The notes below the pieces were generated by a model that was not told the origin of the DNA, searched no databases, and saw only the letters and a program-made list of their open reading frames with translations. The position numbers were made by a program, and so were the translations under genes. Shown one piece after another: positions 2,282-13,756 of a stretch of 64,000 bases of DNA (positions within the stretch are counted from its first letter, which is position 1; every line of letters begins with the position of its first letter). Source of the DNA: Roseovarius salinarum (GTDB lineage: Bacteria > Pseudomonadota > Alphaproteobacteria > Rhodobacterales > Rhodobacteraceae). Location: positions 247-64,246 of the forward strand of contig NZ_PHNT01000003.1 in the NCBI RefSeq assembly GCF_002834145.1, in the 5' to 3' direction.

Positions 2282-3664
2282 ATGAGCGACATCTCCGGCG
2301 GCCTTTTCCGTCAGGGTGGCGGCAACTGGATCCGCCTGCGCACGCTGGTACTGCTGCGATGGTGGGCGATCTTCGGGCAGATCTCGGCACTGGTGGCGGC
2401 CGAGCGGCTCTATAACCTGAACCTCGAGGTGGGACTTTGCTATCTCGTGGTGGGTGTTGCCGTTGTCAGCAACCTTGTTGCCGCCTTCGTGTTCCCGGAA
2501 AACAAGCGCCTGTCGGAATCCGAGAACATGCTGTTCGTTCTCTTCGACATGCTGCAGCTCGGGGCGATGCTGTATCTGACCGGCGGTCTGCACAACCCGT
2601 TTTCAATCCTGATCGTGGGGCCGGTGATCGTCTCGGCCTCCGCTCTTTCCACCCGGTCGACGGTCCTGCTGGGTCTGACGGCGATCCTCATCGTCTCCGT
2701 TTTGACGGAATTCTACCTTCCCCTGCGAACCGAGCAGGGGTTCATACTGCGCACGCCCGGGGTTTTCCTTTTTGGGAACTGGGCGGCCATCGTGATCGCG
2801 GTGGTCTTCCTTGGCGTCTACTCGCGCTGGATCCTGTCCGAGATGCACGCGATGTCCGATGCGCTGCAAGCCACGCAGATGGCGCTGGCACGCGAGCAGA
2901 AGCTGACCGACCTAGGCGGCGTCGTGGCGGCGGCGGCGCACGAACTCGGAACGCCCCTTGCAACGATCAAGCTGACCAGCGCGGAGCTGGCCGAGGAACT
3001 TTCAGACACGCCCGAACTGCGCGAGGACGCCACCCTGATCGGCGAACAGGCGGATCGGTGCCGCGACATTCTGCGGGCCATGGGCGGGCAGTTGAAGGAC
3101 GACCCGCAGCTTCGCAGCGTGCCCCTGCCGGCCCTGCTCGAAGAGGCGGCACAGCCGCACATCGAGCGGGGCAAGGACATTCACTTCGAGACCACCGCGG
3201 AGACCGATGCACCATCGTCACCACCCACCGTGAAGCGCCGCCCCGAGATCATTCACGGTTTGCGGAACCTGATACAGAATGCCGTCGATTTCGCGCGCGG
3301 CAACGTCCGGATCCAGAGCACCTGGACCGCTGACCATATCTCGGTCCGGATCGTGGACGATGGACCGGGGTTTCCCGCACATATCCTCGGGCGGATCGGT
3401 GACCCCTTCATGCGCAGCCGTCCTTCGGGCGATGATGCGCGCCGGCCGGGCTACGAAGGCATGGGGCTGGGCCTGTTCATCGCAAAGACCCTCCTCGAAC
3501 GCTCCGGCGCCGATCTGAGCTTCGCCAATGGTTCGCGCCGATCCGGAGAGCAAGGGAGGAAGACCGGCCGCGGCGCAGTCGTCGAGGTCCGCTGGCCTCG
3601 TGACCGTTTCGACGCCGCGATGGGTGGGCGCCGCGCGGGCGAAACGGCGCCGAACCACGGTTAA
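2282..3664 (+). CDS. regB: Redox sensor histidine kinase RegB/PrrB
   Basis: Inner-membrane sensor kinase that phosphorylates RegA according to quinone redox state and oxygen. The 460-residue protein has several N-terminal transmembrane helices (about 20-180) including the quinone-binding heptad GGLHNPF (101-107). The H-box has H220 (AAAAHELGTPLATIK), the redox-active cysteine is C260 (DRCRDILRAMG), N333 (NLIQNAVDFA) marks the N-box, and the G-boxes are DDGPGFP and GMGLGLFIAK. The start was set at MSDISGGLF after GGGAAGAGG, although the frame is open far upstream. Its stop codon lies inside a TTAA-N7-TTAA palindrome that belongs to the next gene's upstream region. Confidence 0.96.
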   Translation: MSDISGGLFRQGGGNWIRLRTLVLLRWWAIFGQISALVAAERLYNLNLEVGLCYLVVGVAVVSNLVAAFVFPENKRLSESENMLFVLFDMLQLGAMLYLTGGLHNPFSILIVGPVIVSASALSTRSTVLLGLTAILIVSVLTEFYLPLRTEQGFILRTPGVFLFGNWAAIVIAVVFLGVYSRWILSEMHAMSDALQATQMALAREQKLTDLGGVVAAAAHELGTPLATIKLTSAELAEELSDTPELREDATLIGEQADRCRDILRAMGGQLKDDPQLRSVPLPALLEEAAQPHIERGKDIHFETTAETDAPSSPPTVKRRPEIIHGLRNLIQNAVDFARGNVRIQSTWTADHISVRIVDDGPGFPAHILGRIGDPFMRSRPSGDDARRPGYEGMGLGLFIAKTLLERSGADLSFANGSRRSGEQGRKTGRGAVVEVRWPRDRFDAAMGGRRAGETAPNHG

Positions 3665-3677
3665 CGTGGCGTTAACC
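3659..3677. promoter_or_regulatory. Perfect TTAA-N7-TTAA palindrome (CtrA-type box candidate)
   Basis: GGTTAACG-TGG-CGTTAACC is an exact 8-3-8 inverted repeat containing TTAA-N7-TTAA, the full CtrA recognition pattern known from Caulobacter, and two GTTAAC hexamers of the kind reported for Rhodobacterales CtrA. It lies 47 bp before the PAS-protein start and overlaps the regB stop codon. A DnaA-box-like CTGTCCACA follows at about 3679-3688. Binding by CtrA is inferred from the pattern only. Confidence 0.5.
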
Positions 3678-3723
3678 TTCTGTCCACAAGGTGACCCGTG
3701 GTGCGTAACCGCAGGGTCGCGAC

Positions 3724-5244
3724 ATGGAAGACATCCCTACCGCTGTCTGGATTGCCGTCGTCGCGCTGAGCGTTGCGGTTTCGCTCATCGTTATCTTCGC
3801 AGCCGGCGCAACGGGGCGTGGCGCCGAGTCCGATCCTGACGCTTCCCAACTTGCTAAGACCCGCGAGGTTTCGTTCCTTTTCCACGGCTCACAGCTTGTC
3901 GATTGCGACGCGGAGGCGGCCGCAATGCCGCCCGGCGGCATCGAAAGCTGGCGTGACCTGCACCAGTGGCTCAGCTTCCGGTTTCCCGAACTGCCCGCCA
4001 GGATCGACGAGGTTGCGACCGTTGCCGGCAGGGAACTCGCTCCTACCGAGACGTCCGACGGCGGGCGGCTGTTGCTGGATCAGGCGGATGGCGTCACCCG
4101 GGTCACGCTCCGTCAGGCGCGCCCGCCGTCTGCGGCGGATTCGCACGAAGTCGTTCGGTTGCGGCGGAAAATCACGCTCCTGTCAGCGGCGACGGAGACG
4201 GCACCCGACCCGATCTGGATCACCGACGCCGACGGCGCGCAGGTCTGGTGCAACACCGCCTGCGAAATGGCTGCCGAGCTGCCCGGGAAATGGAACACCG
4301 AAGGCCAAGCCGCGGAGCCGGGGCGCGACACCAGGAGTCGGATCGAAATCCCCGTCTCGGCCGGAGACCCGCATCAATACGAAGTGGCCTGCGAGGTGAC
4401 CGGCCACATGACGGTTCACCATGCCCGCGACGTGACGCGGCTCGTCGCCGCGGAGACCGCGCAAAGCAGCTTCGTCCAGACACTGACAAAGACCTTCGCG
4501 AACCTCGCGACCGGCCTGGCCGTCTTCGACTACGAGCGCCGGCTTGCCCTGTTCAACCCGGCGCTCGTCGACCTGACCGGTCTGCGTGCCGAGTTCCTGA
4601 GCGCACGGCCACATTTCACCAGTTTCTTCGACCGGTTGCGGGACAACGGCGCCATGCCTGAACCGCGAAGCTATTCCTCTTGGCGGCGGCGGCTCGAAGA
4701 CCTCGCCACGCGCGCCAACGGAGAGGCGTTCCAGGAAACATGGAACCTGCCTGGCGACGTGACCTACAGGGTCACGGGCCAGCCGCACCCGGACGGTGCA
4801 CTGGTCTTCCTGTTCGAGGACATTTCACCGGAGGTCGCGATGACGCGGGGCACCCGGCGGCAACTGTGGCTGCATCAGGCGGCGCTCGACGCCCTCGAAT
4901 CCTCCGCGGTGCTGTTCGGGCCGGACGGCCGCCTGTGTTTCACCAATGCCGCGTGCCGCGAAGCGCTTCGCCTCGATCCCGATGGCGCGGTAACGGACCT
5001 GAGCATTTCCGATTTCATCACGGCCTGCCAAGTCGCGCGGCCCGTTCCGGAGCTCTGGCAAGCCGTCGAGACGCGCCTGCGAAACGGGACGGCCCCTGGC
5101 ACGGCGTGGCACCGTCAAGCGCCGCTTTCGCACGGCGGTTTCCTGCGCTGCACCGTCTCGTCCCTGCCGGGCGGTGCAACGATGCTGTCGTGGACCGAAA
5201 CCGGCCCCGTCCGGAACGCGCAAGAAGCATCCGTTCACGGCTGA
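3724..5244 (+). CDS. Membrane-anchored PAS-domain protein without kinase domain (DivL-like candidate)
   Basis: A 506-residue protein with one N-terminal transmembrane helix (about 7-27) followed by PAS-type segments. The clearest is a PAS-7-like block (FANLATGLAVFDYERRLALF, then DLTGLRAEFLSARPHF and FLFEDISPEV), followed by another PAS-like repeat (SSAVLFGPDGRLCFTNAACR). It ends without the H-box, N-box or G-boxes of a histidine kinase. In Rhodobacter capsulatus a kinase-less PAS protein called DivL affects CtrA phosphorylation and gene transfer agent production; size, family and the CtrA-like box upstream suggest this is its counterpart. That identity is inference. AGGG precedes the ATG; tsaE follows after 40 bp. 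Confidence 0.75.
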   Translation: MEDIPTAVWIAVVALSVAVSLIVIFAAGATGRGAESDPDASQLAKTREVSFLFHGSQLVDCDAEAAAMPPGGIESWRDLHQWLSFRFPELPARIDEVATVAGRELAPTETSDGGRLLLDQADGVTRVTLRQARPPSAADSHEVVRLRRKITLLSAATETAPDPIWITDADGAQVWCNTACEMAAELPGKWNTEGQAAEPGRDTRSRIEIPVSAGDPHQYEVACEVTGHMTVHHARDVTRLVAAETAQSSFVQTLTKTFANLATGLAVFDYERRLALFNPALVDLTGLRAEFLSARPHFTSFFDRLRDNGAMPEPRSYSSWRRRLEDLATRANGEAFQETWNLPGDVTYRVTGQPHPDGALVFLFEDISPEVAMTRGTRRQLWLHQAALDALESSAVLFGPDGRLCFTNAACREALRLDPDGAVTDLSISDFITACQVARPVPELWQAVETRLRNGTAPGTAWHRQAPLSHGGFLRCTVSSLPGGATMLSWTETGPVRNAQEASVHG

Positions 5245-5284
5245 TCGCGGTTGCGGGTGCGCCGATGGCATGTAATCTCGCGCC

Positions 5285-5761
5285 ATGACCGGTGGCCAGC
5301 TGACACTTTTCATGCAGGACGCGGACAGGACCTGCCGCTTCGCGCAGGCGCTTGCGTCGCGCCTTGCGCCTGGGTGCGTGCTTCTGCTGGACGGGCCCAT
5401 CGGCGCCGGAAAGACCCATTTCGCCCGGTGCCTGATCCAGGCGACCCAGGACATGCCGGAAGACGTGCCCTCGCCCACCTACACGCTGGTGCAGTCCTAT
5501 GCCACGCGCCGGGGCGAGGTCGTGCATGCCGACCTGTATCGGCTGGGCGACACCTCGGAACTGGCCGAGCTTGGCCTCGACGAGGCATTCAACACGGCCA
5601 TCTGTCTCGTCGAATGGCCCGATCGCCTCGGGGATGCGGCACCTGAAAAGGCCCTCACACTGGAATTCGAGATCCCCTCTTCGGGCATCGGCCGCAATGT
5701 CACGCTCAGCTGGACCGATCCGGCATGGGCCGAGCGCCTCGCGGGGGTCGGCCATGACTGA
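5285..5761 (+). CDS. tsaE: tRNA t6A biosynthesis ATPase TsaE
   Basis: ATPase of the TsaBDE complex that makes N6-threonylcarbamoyladenosine at position 37 of ANN-decoding tRNAs. The 158-residue protein has Walker A GPIGAGKT (37-44), the switch-like segment VPSPTYTLVQ, the acidic motif HADLYRLGD and the conserved tail motif VEWPDRLG. It is the first gene of a tightly overlapping set; its last codons overlap the amgK start by 8 bp. Confidence 0.95.
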   Translation: MTGGQLTLFMQDADRTCRFAQALASRLAPGCVLLLDGPIGAGKTHFARCLIQATQDMPEDVPSPTYTLVQSYATRRGEVVHADLYRLGDTSELAELGLDEAFNTAICLVEWPDRLGDAAPEKALTLEFEIPSSGIGRNVTLSWTDPAWAERLAGVGHD

Positions 5762-6773
5762 CCGGGACCACGGCATCGCAAGGTTTCTGCAAACCGAGGG
5801 ATGGGCCGGGGCGCAGGCAACGCCGCTTGCCGGCGACGCCTCGAACCGCCGTTACCTGCGGCTGATCCGGGAGGCCGGGGAACGTGCCGTTCTGATGGAT
5901 GCCCCGCCCGGGCGGGGCGAGGATGTGCGCCCTTTCCTGCACATCGCGCGACACCTGTCCGACCTTGGACTCAGCGCACCGCGCATCCTTGCCGCCGATG
6001 AAACGGAGGGGTTCCTGCTGCTCGAGGATCTTGGCGACGCGGTCTTCGCACGCGTCCTCGAGCAAGACCCGGCGCACGAGGCCGAACTTTACACCGCCGC
6101 GACCGACCTGCTTGTGCGCCTGCACGCCGGCCCGCCTGCCGATGTCGCGGCCTACGATGCGCCGTGCATGACGGAGCTCGCCGCGCTGGCCTTCGACTGG
6201 TACGGCGCCGCCAGCGGGGACATCCAACCGGAGACGCGGGGCGAGTTCACCGCGCGTCTGCAGGCGATCCTTGCAAAGCACGCCCCCGTGCAGGACGTTC
6301 TTGTCCTGCGCGACTACCACGCGGAAAACCTGGTCTGGCTGCCCGAACGCAGCGACGTTGCGCGCGTCGGCCTGCTGGACTTCCAGGATGCCATGACCGG
6401 GCACCGGGCCTATGACCTTGTCTCGCTGCTTCAGGACGCGCGACGCGACGTTCCGGAGGCACGCGAGGCGGCGATGATTGATCGCTACGTGGATCGAGCG
6501 GGACTCGCACCCGAACCGTTCCACGCCGCCTACCGGTGCCTCGGCGTGCAGCGCAACCTTCGGATCCTGGGCGTCTTTGCACGGCTTGCCCTTCGCGACG
6601 CCAAGCCGCGCTACCTTTCCCTGATGCCGCGTGTCTGGGCGCACCTGTCCAGGGATCTCGAACACCCGGCGCTTGCCGACCTCGCCGAGCTCCTGCCCCG
6701 CATGCTGCCGGCGCCAACCCCGGAGATTTTGCGCCAACTGGAAGAGCGATGCCCGACGTCCCATTCCCCGTGA
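5754..6773 (+). CDS. amgK: N-acetylmuramate/N-acetylglucosamine kinase AmgK
   Basis: Aminoglycoside-phosphotransferase-fold sugar kinase of 339 residues. In Pseudomonas AmgK phosphorylates MurNAc (and GlcNAc) at the anomeric position during peptidoglycan recycling. Motifs are the nucleotide-binding start [22 protein letters not shown], catalytic loop [12 protein letters not shown] (D187, N192) and metal-binding [16 protein letters not shown] (D209). Its immediate partner is a MurU-type nucleotidyltransferase, overlapping by 25 bp, which makes the recycling role much more likely than antibiotic resistance. Start is the ATG overlapping the tsaE stop. Confidence 0.88.
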
Positions 6774-7447
6774 TGCTTTTTGCCGCCGGGTTCGGCACCC
6801 GCATGGGTCCGCTGACAGCCGAGCGGCCGAAGCCGCTGCTTCCCGTCGCGGGCCGGCCGCTCGTGGATCACGCGCTCGGCCTGGCGCGGCAGGCCGGCGC
6901 ACCGCGCATCGTGGTCAACCTGCATTACAAGGCCGAGATGATGGCGCGTCATCTCGAAGGCTCGGGCGTCCTGCTGTCCCACGAAACGCCCGATATCCTC
7001 GACACCGGAGGTGGGCTGCGCGCCGCGCTGCCGCTTCTCGACAGTGCGACCGCATTCACTTTGAACACGGACGCCATTTTCGCCGGGACGAACCCGCTGA
7101 CGGCGCTTCTGGAGCGCTGGCACCCCGAGGAAATGGACGCGCTCTTGCTGTGCGTCCCCGCGGAACGGGCCGAGGGCCATGCCGGCGGCGGGGATTTCCG
7201 GGTGGGCGGCGACGGGCGCGTACATCGCGGGGGGAACCTGGTTTACACCGGCGCGCAGATCTTCAAGACGGGCGGCCTGTCCGGCATCTCGGACAGGGTT
7301 TTCTCGCTCAACCGGCTCTGGGATGACATGATGGCACGCGGACGGCTCCAGGCCGTCAGCTACGACGGGTCATGGTGCGACGTTGGAACCCCCGAGGGCA
7401 TCGCATTGGCCGAGCGCATGGTCGGAGGCCGAGATGTTCACGGGTGA
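6749..7447 (+). CDS. murU: N-acetylmuramate-1-phosphate uridylyltransferase MurU
   Basis: Sugar-phosphate nucleotidyltransferase of 232 residues; with AmgK it converts salvaged MurNAc-1-phosphate to UDP-MurNAc, bypassing fosfomycin-sensitive de novo synthesis in organisms where this has been tested. It shows the NTP-binding signature [28 protein letters not shown], the metal aspartate in LNTDAIF and the lid motif [12 protein letters not shown]. It overlaps amgK upstream and addB downstream. Broader annotation as mannose-1-phosphate guanylyltransferase-like is possible, but the gene pair argues for MurU. Confidence 0.85.
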
Positions 7448-10376
7448 CGGCACGCCCCGTGTTTTCGGCCTGCCGCCCGGTGCGGATTTCCCCGCCGCGC
7501 TGGTCGCGGGCCTTCGGGCCCGCACCGCCGACCGCCCCCCCGAGGCGCTGGCGCGCGTGCGGCTGATCGTGAACACCCGCCGCATGGCCCGTCGCATCCG
7601 CGAGCTGTTCGACGCTGGACCGCCGGTCTTGCTGCCGCGCATCGAGCTTGTCCCGGACCTTGGCGAGGGCTGGGGACTCGCCCATGTGCCGCCACCCGTC
7701 CCGTCACTGCGCCAGCGGCTCGAGTTGGTGCACCTCGTGGCATCGCTGCTCGACCATCAGCCGGATCTCGCCCCGCGCTCGGCGCTGTTCGACCTGGCAG
7801 ACAGCCTTGCTTCACTGATGGAGGAAATGCACGGTGAAGGTGTTGCCCCCGAGACGATCAAGCAACTCGATGTGAGTGACGAATCCGGGCATTGGGGCCG
7901 CATCAAGACGTTCCTGGGGATCGTCGACCAGTACTTCGAGCCCACCCGGGAGGCCCCCGATCCCGAAAGTCGCCAGCGCCGGATTGCCGAAATGCTGGCA
8001 CACCGCTGGCGTGACGCACCACCGGCAGATCCCGTCATCATCGCGGGATCGACCGGGTCACGCGGCGCCACGCAGCTGCTGATGCAGGCGGTGGCGCGGC
8101 TGCCCCAGGGGGCCGTGGTGTTGCCGGGTTTCGATTTCGACATGCCCCAGCCCGTGTGGGCCAGCATGCACAACGCGCTTTCGTCAGAAGATCACCCGCA
8201 GTTCCGTTTCCACCGCTTCCTGTCCGCGCTGGACATCTCGCCCGGCGATGTCCCGCGGTGGACTGACGCGGAACCCGAGTCACCGGCTCGGGCGAAGGTC
8301 GTTTCGCTGGCCCTGCGCCCGGCTCCCGTCACTGACCAGTGGTTGCGCGACGGTCCGGCGCTTCCGGACCTGCGCACCGCCATGCAGGGCGTCACGCTCG
8401 TGGAGGCACGGTCAACCCGGATCGAGGCACTTGCCATCGCGATGCGATTGCGTCGTGCGGCCGAGGACGGGCAGACCGCAGCGCTGGTGACGCCCGACCG
8501 CGAGCTGACCCGGCAGGTGACCGCCGCGCTGGACCGCTGGAACATCAGGCCCGACGACAGCGCCGGCGTGCCCCTGCACCTGTCCCCGCCGGGTCGGTTC
8601 CTGCGGCACGTGGCACAGACCATCCGGCACCGACCGAGCTGCGAGACGTTGCTGGCCCTTCTCAAGCACCCGATCACGCACAGCGGTGCCGACCGGGGCG
8701 AACACCTCCGGCTGACCCACGACCTCGAGCTTCACCTTCGCCGCAACGGGCCGCCGCACCCGGCCGCATCGGACCTGCGCGACTGGGCAGAGGCACGCGA
8801 CGAAGCGTTTGCCACGCAGTGGGCCGGCTGGCTGTGCGATACCGCGCTCGCCGGGCATGACTCGGCCAATGCCCCGCTGGAACTCCATGTCTCGCGGCAT
8901 GTCGCGCTGGCCGAACACTTGGCGCGCGGCAGTTCGGCCACCGGAATATCTACCGGAACCCTCTGGGACAAGGACGCCGGCCAGAAGGCCCTCGAGGTCA
9001 CGCAGTCCCTGCAGGCCGAGGCGCCGGCCGCGGGCGAACTGAGCGTTCCGGATTACCTTTCGCTGTTCGAGGCCGTTCTGGCCCGCGGCGAGGTGCGCTC
9101 GCCCGAGGTCCCGCACCCGGGCATCCGCATCTGGGGCACCCTCGAGGCCCGCGTCCAGGGGGCGGACCTCCTTGTCCTGGCCGGCCTGAATGAAAAGTGC
9201 TGGCCCGAGGCACCGCCCCCGGACCCGTGGCTCAACCGATCCATGCGGCACGAGGCCGGGCTGCTTTTGCCAGAGCGGCGAATCGGGCTCGCGGCCCATG
9301 ATTTCCAGCAGGCCATAGGCGCCTCGGATGTCTGGCTGACCCGGTCGATCCGGTCGGACGACGCCGAAACGGTGGTATCACGCTGGCTCAACCGGTTGCA
9401 GAACCTGCTGTCGGGTCTGCCGGACCGCCACGGGCCGGGCGCGTTGAAGGACATGCGGGACCGCGGCGCGCACTGGCTGCACATGGCCGAGGCCCTCGAT
9501 GAACCCGGTACCACCGCCCCGGCCACCAGGCCGGCACCCTGCCCGCCACCGGCTGCCCGCCCCAGGCGCCTGACCGTGACCGAGATACCGCGGCTGGTCC
9601 GCGATCCCTATGCCGTTTATGCCAAGCATGTTCTGGGGCTCCGGCCGCTGGATCCGTTGATGCAGGTGCCGGATTCGCTGCTGCGGGGGATCGTCCTGCA
9701 CGATGTCCTTGAACGCTTTGTCCAGCGGACGCGTGAGGACCCCGCCGCCTGCACGACGGCCAACCTGATGCAGTGTGCCGAAGCCGTGCTGTCGGAGAAG
9801 GTGCCATGGGCGGAGGCCCGCGCGTTGTGGTTGGCACGCCTGGAACGCGTGGCCGATTTCTTCGTGGAAACGGAGCTCGAGCGGCGCCGCAAGGCCCGAC
9901 CCGTCGCCTTCGAGGAGAGCGGGGAGGTCATGGTCCCGTCGCTGGGCTTCACGCTGGCGGCCAAGGCCGACCGGATCGACATGGACGACGCCGGCAACCT
10001 GCACCTCTACGATTACAAGTCGGGTCAGCCGCCGACGGAAAAGCAGCAGAAAACCTATGACAAGCAACTGTTGCTCGAGGCCGCGATGGCCGAGCGAACC
10101 GCTTTCGGAACGGTCGGGCCGGCCCCTGTCGCAAGTGCGGTCTATGTCGGGCTTGGCGGCGAGGGCAAGGAGATACCAGCGCCCCTGGACGCCGAGCCGC
10201 CGGACAAGACCTGGCAGGACTTCGAAACGCTGATAGGCGCCTATTTCGACCCTGAACAAGGTTATTCGGCCCGTCGTGCCCTGGTGTCGAAGCACGAGGC
10301 GAGCGACTACGACCAGCTTGCCCGGTTCGGCGAATGGGACACCACCGACCGGCCCACGAAGGTGAGGTTGCCATGA
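7434..10376 (+). CDS. addB: Double-strand break repair protein AddB
   Basis: Second subunit of the AddAB helicase-nuclease that resects DNA breaks for RecA (RecBCD counterpart in alphaproteobacteria). The 980-residue protein has an N-terminal inactivated helicase-like region ([18 protein letters not shown]) and a C-terminal PD-(D/E)XK nuclease with [10 protein letters not shown] and YDYKSGQPP near residue 857. The start was taken as the ATG inside the end of murU (14-bp overlap). Its stop overlaps the addA start as ATGA, so translation is probably coupled. Confidence 0.95.
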
Positions 10377-13300
10377 CCGCACCCGACGACGCGACCCGGC
10401 GCCAGATCGAGGCGGCGCGGCCCGACCGCTCCACCTGGCTGTCGGCCAACGCCGGCTCGGGCAAGACGCGCGTGCTGACCGACCGGGTGGCGCGGCTTCT
10501 GCTCGACGGCGTGGACCCGCAGCACATCCTGTGCCTGACCTACACGAAGGCCGCGGCCAGCGAGATGCAGAACCGCCTGTTCGCTCGGCTGGGCGCCTGG
10601 GCCATGCGCGGCGACGACGCGCTGGCGCATGATCTGACCGAACTGGGGTATGAGGGCCTGCGTGACGCCGAAGCCCTGCGGCGCGCGCGGACCCTGTTCG
10701 CCCAGGCAATCGAGACACCCGGCGGGCTGAAGATCCAGACGATCCACTCGTTTTGCGCCGCCCTGTTGCGCCGTTTCCCGATGGAAGCCGGCGTCAGCCC
10801 CCAGTTCCGAGAAATGGAGGACCGCGCCGCGCGCCAGCTGCGCGCCGAGATCGTCGAGGACATAGCCAACGGCCCGCATGCGTCGACACTGTATGCGGTT
10901 GCGCGCCAGCACGCCGGCGACTCGCTGGACGAGTTGACCGGCGAGATCGTGCGCCACCGCGGAGCGCTGGCCAATCCGATGAGCGACGCGCAGATCGCCG
11001 CGATGTTCGGGCAGCCCGTTGGCCTTGACCGGACCGGGGTCGAATCCTGCGCGTTCACCGGGGACGAAGCACCGCTTCTCGATGCGCTTGTGGCGGCCCT
11101 CCGCTCGGGCAGTTCCAATGACGTCAAGGCCGCCGAAAGGCTCGGGCAGATCCCGCGCCTCGACATCTCGGCCCTGCCCGTCCTGGAAAAGGTGTTCCTG
11201 ACCGGGAAAGACGCGAAAGAACCTTTCTCGGCCAAGATTGGCTCATTTCCGACCAAGGCATCCCGCGCGGCAAATCCCGGGCTGATCCCCGCGCTCAACG
11301 CCTTGATGGCGCGTGTCGAAACCGCGCGCGAGAAACGGATCGCGCTTGCCGCGATGGAAAAGACACGCGTGCTGCGCGATTTCGCGGGTGTTTTCCTGCA
11401 GGCGTACGAAGAGGCCAAGAAGCTGCGCGGCCTTCTCGACTTCGATGACCTGATCCTCAAGGCGCGCGGGCTGCTGACCGACTCCGACCTTGCCGCATGG
11501 GTATTGTTCCGCCTCGACGGCGGAATTGACCATATCCTGGTCGACGAGGCCCAGGACACGAGCCCGGCGCAATGGCAGGTCATCGAACGGCTGGCGCAGG
11601 AGTTCACCAGCGGCACCGGCGCGCGGGCCGACAAAACGCGCACGATCTTCGTCGTCGGTGACAAGAAACAGTCGATCTATTCCTTCCAGGGGGCCGATCC
11701 CGGCGCGTTCGATCGGATGCGCGCGGATTTCGCCACGCGGCTGGAAAACTCGGAAACCCCCCTGCAAGCCTGCCAGATGGCGCATTCCTTCCGGTCCGCC
11801 CAGTGCATCCTGACGCTGGTCGACCGGACCTTCGCCGGCGACACGACGGCCGGATTCACGCCCGGGTCGGGGCATGTCTCCTACCGCGCCGAGATGCCCG
11901 GGCGCGTCGATCTGTGGCCACCCGTCACACCACCTGAAAAGGAGGAGGAGCCACCCTGGACCGATCCGATCGACGTGCTGGCCCGCAACGCGCCGCCCGT
12001 GGTCCTGGCGTGCGAAATCGCGGCCCGGATCCGCCGGCTCCTGGACGAGCGGCACCCGATACCCGAAGGAAAGCGCAACGATCGCAGCTACGTGATGCGG
12101 CCCGTCACGCCGGGGGATTTCCTGATCCTCGTGCGGCGCCGATCCGATCTGTTCCACGAGATCATCCGGGAATGCAAGGCACGGGACCTGCCCGTGGCCG
12201 GGGCGGACCGCCTGAAGGTGGGCGCAGAGCTGGCGGTGCGCGATCTTGGCGCGCTCCTGTCGTTTCTCGACACGCCGGAGGACGATCTGTCGCTGGCCGC
12301 TGCGCTGCGATCCCCTCTTTTCGGCTGGGACGAGGCGGCGCTTTACGATCTTGCGCATGATCGTGAGACGCGGTTTCTCTGGGAGGCGCTGCGCCGGCGC
12401 GCGGCGGAGTTCCCCGACACGATGGCGATCATCGGTGACCTGCGCGATCACACCGACTACTTGCGCCCCTATGACCTGATAGAGCGGATCCTGACGCGCC
12501 ACGGCGGACGGCGGCGATTGCTCGCCCGGCTGGGGGCGGAGGCGGAGGACGGCATAGACGCGCTTCTGACACAGGCGCTGGCCTATGAACGGCAGGCCGT
12601 CGACAGCCTGACCGGTTTCCTCGTTTGGATGCAGACCGACGAATTCGAGATCAAGCGGCAGATGGACAGCGCGGGCGACCGGATCCGCGTGATGACCGTG
12701 CACGGCGCCAAGGGCCTTGAATCGCCGATCGTGATCCTGCCGGACACGGCGCAATGGCCACTTCGGATCCGCGATCAGATCCTTCCCGTCGATGGCCATG
12801 CGCTCTGGCGCACGCCGGCGGATGACTCGCCATCGGCGGTGCGCGATGCCGTTGAGGGGCTCAAGGCCGCGCAGGAGGCCGAGCGGACCCGGCTTCTGTA
12901 TGTCGCGATGACCCGCGCCGAGAAATGGCTCATCGTGGCAGCCGCCGGGGATCTCGGGAAAGACGGGACAAGCTGGTACGAAAAGGTCAAGCGCGGCATG
13001 ACGGCCTGCGGCGCTTATACGAAGGACTTCGGTCTCGGCCCCGGGCTCAGGCTGCAAACCGGGAACTGGAACATCGCGCCACCTGCCGCCGAGGCCGGCC
13101 CCCCGGACGAGCCACCGCACCTGCCGGATTTCTTCAGCCAACCCGCCCCGACCCCGCTGCATCCGCCCGAAGTGCTAAGCCCCTCGGAACTGGGCGGCGC
13201 GAAGGCGCTGCCGGGCGAGGAAGGGCAGGACGAGGCCGCAGCAAAGGCGAAAGGCACACGGGTTCACCTGCTGCTCGAACACCTTCCGCAGCTGCCGCGC

Positions 13301-13756
13301 GACGACTGGCCCGACGCCGCCGAACGATTGCTCTGCCAAGGGGTGGACCCCGCGACGCCGGAGGCCTGCGCCGAAGCACTGGCCGAGGCACGGTATGTCC
13401 TGACCCGGCCCGGGTTGGCGCATCTGTTCGCCCATGATGCATTGGCGGAGGTCCCGGTTTCCGCGAAGGTCGACGCGCTTCAGGGGCGCCGTATCCACGG
13501 CGTGCTTGACAGGCTGCTGGTATGCCGTGATCGGGTCCTGGCCGTCGACTTCAAGACGAACGCGATTGTGCCCGGAAGCCCGCGGGAAACGCCCGAGGGG
13601 CTCTTGCGACAGATGGGTGCCTATGCCCAGGCGCTGGGCAAGGTGTATCCCGACCGCCGGGTCGAAACCGCCCTCTTGTGGACGCGCACCGCAACTCTGA
13701 TGCCGCTTCCCCACGATGTCGTGACAGCGGCACTGGCGCGCGTGCCGCCTGCTTGA
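10373..13756 (+). CDS. addA: Double-strand break repair helicase AddA
   Basis: UvrD-type helicase and nuclease subunit of AddAB. The 1127-residue protein carries Walker [12 protein letters not shown] at about 24-34, the superfamily 1 motif [15 protein letters not shown], Walker [31 protein letters not shown], motif [15 protein letters not shown], and motif [14 protein letters not shown]. The C-terminal nuclease has GVLDRLLVC followed by AVDFKTNA. Length and motif order are standard for alphaproteobacterial AddA. Its stop codon overlaps a candidate trxA promoter element. Confidence 0.96.

Follow-up and report, generated by a model that had tools for sequence, protein, structure and literature searches.

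A conserved CtrA-type site upstream of a kinase-less divL gene in Roseovarius salinarum and its probable place in a CtrA-CckA feedback loop

In a stretch of 64,000 nucleotides from Roseovarius salinarum (contig NZ_PHNT01000003.1; hereafter the 64-kb window), a gene for a PAS protein lies downstream of regB, with a CtrA-type box in front of it. Is this protein the counterpart of DivL, and does the box place its gene in a CtrA feedback loop? A first-pass annotation had proposed both from the sequence. Our analysis establishes that the box exists, where it lies, that it is conserved, and that the protein is homologous to DivL. We consider it very probable that this kinase-less divL is under CtrA activation, within a positive CtrA-CckA feedback loop. 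The loop is not new, because PMC2877005 predicted it for Rhodobacterales already in 2010. The circuit is already published, and the window is one more instance of it. Published statements are given here as they stand in excerpts of the papers cited.

The window carries an exact palindrome with TTAA-N7-TTAA, as first described, GGTTAACG-TGG-CGTTAACC at 3659-3677. It lies over the end of regB and 5' of the 506-codon gene at 3724-5244, and the regB stop codon TAA (3662-3664) falls within it. Between the palindrome and the ATG at 3724 lie 46 bases, where the first-pass annotation had counted 47. TTAA-N7-TTAA has a single occurrence in the window, against 0.01 expected from shuffles.

We searched the protein in 100 genomes: the window's own, 59 of the same genus, and 40 of other families. 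The orthologous loci compared were 60. They consist of 56 same-genus matches, the window genome, and three named relatives (a metagenome-assembled genome, Gemmobacter aestuarii, and Pseudorhodobacter sp., whose overlap with the rest of the set is possible). The exact TTAA-N7-TTAA is present in the gap 5' of the PAS gene in all 60. At the control spacings 3-6 and 8-12, exact TTAA pairs occur in 0-1 of the 60 loci. More precisely, these loci hold 63 exact boxes in the 12,707 bp inside the gap and 0 in the 226,254 bp outside it. A wider draw covered 394 family genomes from 393 genera. From it we took 40 loci of further genera, a non-random set picked by hand among the better-scoring matches listed (of 358). 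The box is exact in 34 of these 40, and other spacings give exact pairs in 0-2. The divL proteins across the loci compared are 31-44% identical to that of the window, and the spacer letters are variable. It means that conservation of the box is not simple recent descent. The conservation in relatives that the first-pass annotation had asked for is thus borne out for the box.

Five loci (L011, L043, L049, L104, and L118) have two overlapping exact boxes 5' of divL, so that TTAA stands there three times at intervals of 11 bases. Among the near-complete genomes of the genus, only G058 (99% complete) gave no divL match. At its locus (L180, 2898-3734), regB and an exact CtrA-type box are kept, and an IS240-type transposase lies at the expected divL start. 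No divL was found on this contig, which ends about 3.3 kb after regB.

Which features of the box are shared? Perfect 8-bp arms are present in one of the 60 loci, so the palindrome was rejected as the functional unit. Likewise, of the 59 loci having a regB match, one has the regB stop within the box, and a role for this overlap was rejected. By comparison of the loci, both features are peculiar to the window genome, and what the loci share is a direct repeat, in which TTAA recurs after an 11-base step. The first-pass annotation also placed a DnaA-box-like CTGTCCACA directly after the palindrome. It is present at 3680-3688, two bases further on, but it is not conserved: this 9-mer is in place in the window genome only (1/60). 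Allowing up to two mismatches on either strand, an in-place 9-mer exists in 4/60 loci, and we rejected the DnaA box for lack of conservation. Over the whole stretch from box to start, such 9-mers with up to two mismatches appear in nine loci, a mild excess over the 3.5 that letter shuffles give. With at most one mismatch, they appear in none of the 60.

The in-register profile of the 60 loci reads TTAAC-N6-TTAACCA, followed by a -10-like element and a purine-rich stretch before the start. The -10-like element is found 26-31 bases from the first T. It shows A at the second position in 49 loci (A27) and T at the sixth in 47 (T31). The 40 loci of other genera present the same box, with a less clear -10. 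With the usual 17-base spacer, the -35 hexamer would fall mostly between the two TTAA halves. The box would then cover the -35 position of the putative promoter and leave the -10 free, an arrangement expected of an activator.

This arrangement bears on the opposite sign of control. CtrA is a repressor at some Caulobacter promoters. Bound at the box, it could repress divL or act on the end of regB transcription, and the loop would be negative or absent. The overlap of the box with the regB stop in the window genome agrees with this. Nevertheless, that overlap is confined to one locus, and the profile has the form expected of an activated promoter. Published expression argues in the same direction, since two relatives express less divL when ctrA is mutated. 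In Rhodobacter capsulatus, divL expression is lower in ctrA knockouts (PMC6363796), and rcc00042, its divL, is affected by CtrA loss (PMC4158056). In Dinoroseobacter shibae, divL expression is lower in ctrA, cckA, and chpT mutants (PMC4046655). Repression or an effect on regB is therefore improbable, and activation of divL remains our reading.

Sites of the same type stand before other genes of the circuit. In the whole genome of 3,400,809 bases, TTAA-N7-TTAA occurs at four places: before divL, before cckA, in the gap between a MetOD1-domain gene and a divergent gene, and where an SNase-domain frame begins. The best model matches of the cckA product are to CckA, at scores under the cut-offs and on 491 residues only. 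We compared the upstream regions of cckA and ctrA in 30 relatives that we chose from the 56 same-genus matches. With the own genome included, the box 5' of cckA is exact in 29 of 31 genomes and has one mismatch in the remaining two. The ctrA gene is present (NF045991, 431.8 bits, cut-off 350), and its receiver part matches the solved CtrA 4qpj. A one-mismatch site lies 67 bases before its start in the window genome, and GTAA-N7-TTAA, with one mismatch, lies at -64 to -71 in 30/30 loci. This is perhaps a weaker site for autoregulation.

The upstream half-site is GTAA at ctrA in all 30 loci (L149-L177 and L065), whereas it is TTAA at divL in all 60. In G003 (listed as 100% complete), ctrA appears as two overlapping frames, for residues 1-133 and 133-238 (L179, G003:C2:1496974-1497686), through either a sequencing error or a real break. 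This genome has no single full-length ctrA match, and its divL is preceded by two overlapping boxes. The full site of locus L064 (20-1515) is between the MetOD1-domain gene, which is followed by a GGDEF gene, and the divergent gene. PMC7232146 counts cyclic di-GMP signalling genes with the traits under CtrA control.

The spacing of these sites also helps to separate CtrA from regulators with similar half-sites. A Crp/Fnr-type protein, for example FnrL or Dnr, would fit a redox locus. The D. shibae Dnr/Fnr site TTAAC-N4-GTCAA shares a half-site with CtrA, and FnrL has been suggested to bind beside divL in R. capsulatus (both PMC7232146). However, in its conserved form the box repeats TTAA directly at a step of 11 bases, its spacer is 7 in 60/60 loci, and the spacing before cckA is identical in 29/31 genomes. 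Another owner of the box, such as a Crp/Fnr-type regulator, is very improbable compared with CtrA.

Is the protein DivL? As the first description had it, the window protein has an N-terminal helix and PAS modules without kinase motifs. Pfam at E up to 1 gives PAS models only, and neither HisKA nor HATPase was found. A structure model from four sequences, of low confidence (predicted template modelling score, pTM, 0.30), places the helix at residues 5-28 and four PAS-like modules linked by helices. The own genome has one match to the protein only. In the same genus, 56 of the 59 genomes match, and nearly all the open frames are of about 500-600 amino acids. Homologs are present in 358 of the 394 genomes of the family draw (320 of the 347 of high quality). 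In other families, 27/40 genomes match; many of the frames concerned are about 700-880 amino acids long, and some are shorter.

Tyrosine in place of the kinase H-box histidine is the mark of DivL. We read eight matching loci from seven of the 27 other-family genomes. Seven of these loci have a kinase part, and all seven have a tyrosine H-box (SYELRTPL, SYQLRTPL, or SYQLRNPL). One full-length other-family protein has the solved DivL 4q20 as its best match (E 1.2e-57). The window protein and the DivL of one such genome (G063) are reciprocal best matches, with 3.6e-35 forward and 5.9e-35 back from the PAS part of the G063 DivL (next match 2e-5). Identity to the homologs of G062 and G063 is 28-29% over 264-338 residues, with reciprocity checked for G063. 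The PAS modules matched in full-length DivL run to shortly before the kinase part. By homology, the window gene is the Rhodobacteraceae divL, in which the membrane anchor and the PAS sensor part appear kept and the pseudokinase part lost. The claim that it is the DivL counterpart is supported. That it is an unrelated multi-PAS sensor sitting by regB is hardly credible: a fold search with the low-confidence model gives general PAS proteins (PpsR, DosP, FixL) as best solved structures and the protein has no sequence match in PDB, but the reciprocal matches with full-length DivL reach near the kinase part, and the own genome holds a single match.

Genome G063 has, besides its full-length DivL, a second DivL that is kinase-less (L076, G063:C13; 569 amino acids). 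CtrA is 89-93% identical in 29/30 same-genus genomes, against 31-44% for DivL among orthologs. So, the sensor part evolves far faster.

Compared with full-length Caulobacter-type DivL (kinase part 4q20), the PAS part of the window protein is homologous. However, it has no DHp or CA part, and so neither the tyrosine-bearing H-box nor the DivK-binding part described in PMC2877005. The same source predicted CtrA control of cckA and divL in one Rhodobacterales cluster, whose DivL is without a kinase domain, going with DivK absence. The window gene is not a pseudokinase with the H-box tyrosine; it has the features of the kinase-less Rhodobacterales form, with about 500 amino acids, a single copy in the window genome, and a place next to regB. 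In R. capsulatus, divL is rcc00042 and RegB is rcc00043 (PMC6473078, PMC8191878), and the consecutive locus tags indicate that they are neighbours. Its DivL is likewise a kinase-less PAS protein, although InterPro gives one PAS there (PMC6473078) and Pfam gives PAS in three regions of the window protein. R. capsulatus was not found among the 394 family genomes (best identity to its cytochrome c2, 68%). Probable orthology with its DivL is drawn from locus-tag adjacency and the shared kinase-less architecture. The D. shibae DivL, Dshi_3433, is similar by description, with a CtrA site in its promoter (PMC4046655) and PAS domains only (PMC6473078). In that species, CtrA sites are described before ctrA, cckA, divL, and clpP (PMC4046655). 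Several Rhodobacterales genomes have two divL paralogs (PMC8116508), whereas the window genome has one divL match.

The circuit would work as follows. CtrA, most likely phosphorylated, would occupy the -35 position by binding TTAAC-N6-TTAACC (3661-3677) and activate divL transcription from the -10 at about 3687-3692. DivL would stimulate the hybrid kinase CckA; the R. capsulatus DivL is stated to enhance CckA kinase activity (PMC9143464, citing Westbye 2018). CckA would in turn phosphorylate CtrA through ChpT, and the positive loop would be closed. Besides divL, cckA carries a full site of the CtrA type and ctrA a one-mismatch site. For R. salinarum, we infer that CtrA binds, that the loop is positive, and that DivL contacts CckA. 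The feedback reading of the first-pass annotation is supported by the sequence together with the published divL expression in ctrA mutants of relatives.

Several observations weigh against this reading. Genome-wide, TTAA-N7-TTAA (4 places) is no commoner than the reversed control pattern AATT-N7-AATT (7 places). Six of the 40 loci of other genera carry a one-mismatch site only. One-mismatch sites occur at other spacings too, in 3-14 of the 60 loci, so alone they are weak evidence. An exact full site before ctrA was found in 0/30 loci. A consensus sigma-70 scan finds no promoter in 3500-5400. CtrA binding and divL transcription in R. salinarum are predictions from sequence. Finally, the D. shibae divL homolog is called weakly conserved, with other candidates existing (PMC4046655), and the name divL is also given to Dshi_3346, which has a kinase and a receiver (PMC6473078). 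It means that the divL assignment in that species is not clean.

The table lists the features of the locus and the genes around it.

Table. Coordinates of the regB-divL locus and the following genes in the 64-kb window.
Feature	Position	Strand	Evidence and remarks
regB, redox-sensing histidine kinase	2282..3664	+	NCBIfam NF045988, 721 bits, cut-off 570
CtrA-type full site TTAACGTGGCGTTAA	3661..3675	+	conserved form TTAAC-N6-TTAACCA; exact in 60/60 loci
putative -10 element CAAGGT	3687..3692	+	second A and sixth T conserved; promoter inferred from sequence profile
purine-rich stretch, likely ribosome-binding site	3711..3716	+	purine enrichment, profile positions 50-55
divL, kinase-less, 506 aa	3724..5244	+	N-terminal helix, four PAS-like modules; Pfam PAS in three regions
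tsaE, opening a compact gene run 40 nt past divL	5285..5761	+	TIGR00150
AmgK-like sugar kinase	5754..6773	+	NF045698, 277.6 bits, below cut-off 500
MurU-like nucleotidyltransferase	6749..7447	+	NF045697, 159.8 bits, below cut-off 370
addB	7434..10376	+	TIGR02786, 939.8 bits, cut-off 486.5
addA	10373..13756	+	TIGR02784, 1223.6 bits, cut-off 860.75

The attachment of divL to the RegB locus, also part of the first description, is general in the loci compared. A regB match lies upstream of divL in 59/60 orthologous loci and in 40/40 of the further genera (some 0.8 kb away in L104), and the locus tags of R. capsulatus agree. In that species, loss of the CtrA phosphorelay is reported to be without effect on regA or regB transcripts (PMC7232146). 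For this reason, we take the divL-RegB link as positional only.

Downstream, we compared the 33 of the 60 loci with sufficient sequence 3' of divL. The inferred tsaE start is 28-55 nt past divL in 31 of them, 1310 nt in one, and not found in one. The AmgK-like, MurU-like, addB, and addA genes overlap each other at the starts chosen, and a consensus scan found no terminator-like site between divL and tsaE. With the short divL-tsaE gap, these features suggest that the CtrA-type promoter may feed the tsaE-addA run. A single polycistron divL-tsaE-amgK-murU-addB-addA driven by the CtrA box is possible, although we hold it doubtful. If it exists, t6A tRNA modification, the recycling of cell-wall sugars, and double-strand break repair by AddAB would come under the loop that governs CtrA activity. 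In that case, the conserved regB-divL-tsaE order would firmly tie together redox sensing, CtrA state, and recombination.

The locus adds a well-supported case to the published circuit, with the site kept in every orthologous locus despite the low identity of the proteins. It also refines the circuit, with the site placed over the putative -35 position and matching sites at cckA and ctrA. The results obtained in R. capsulatus and D. shibae are likely to hold widely in the family.

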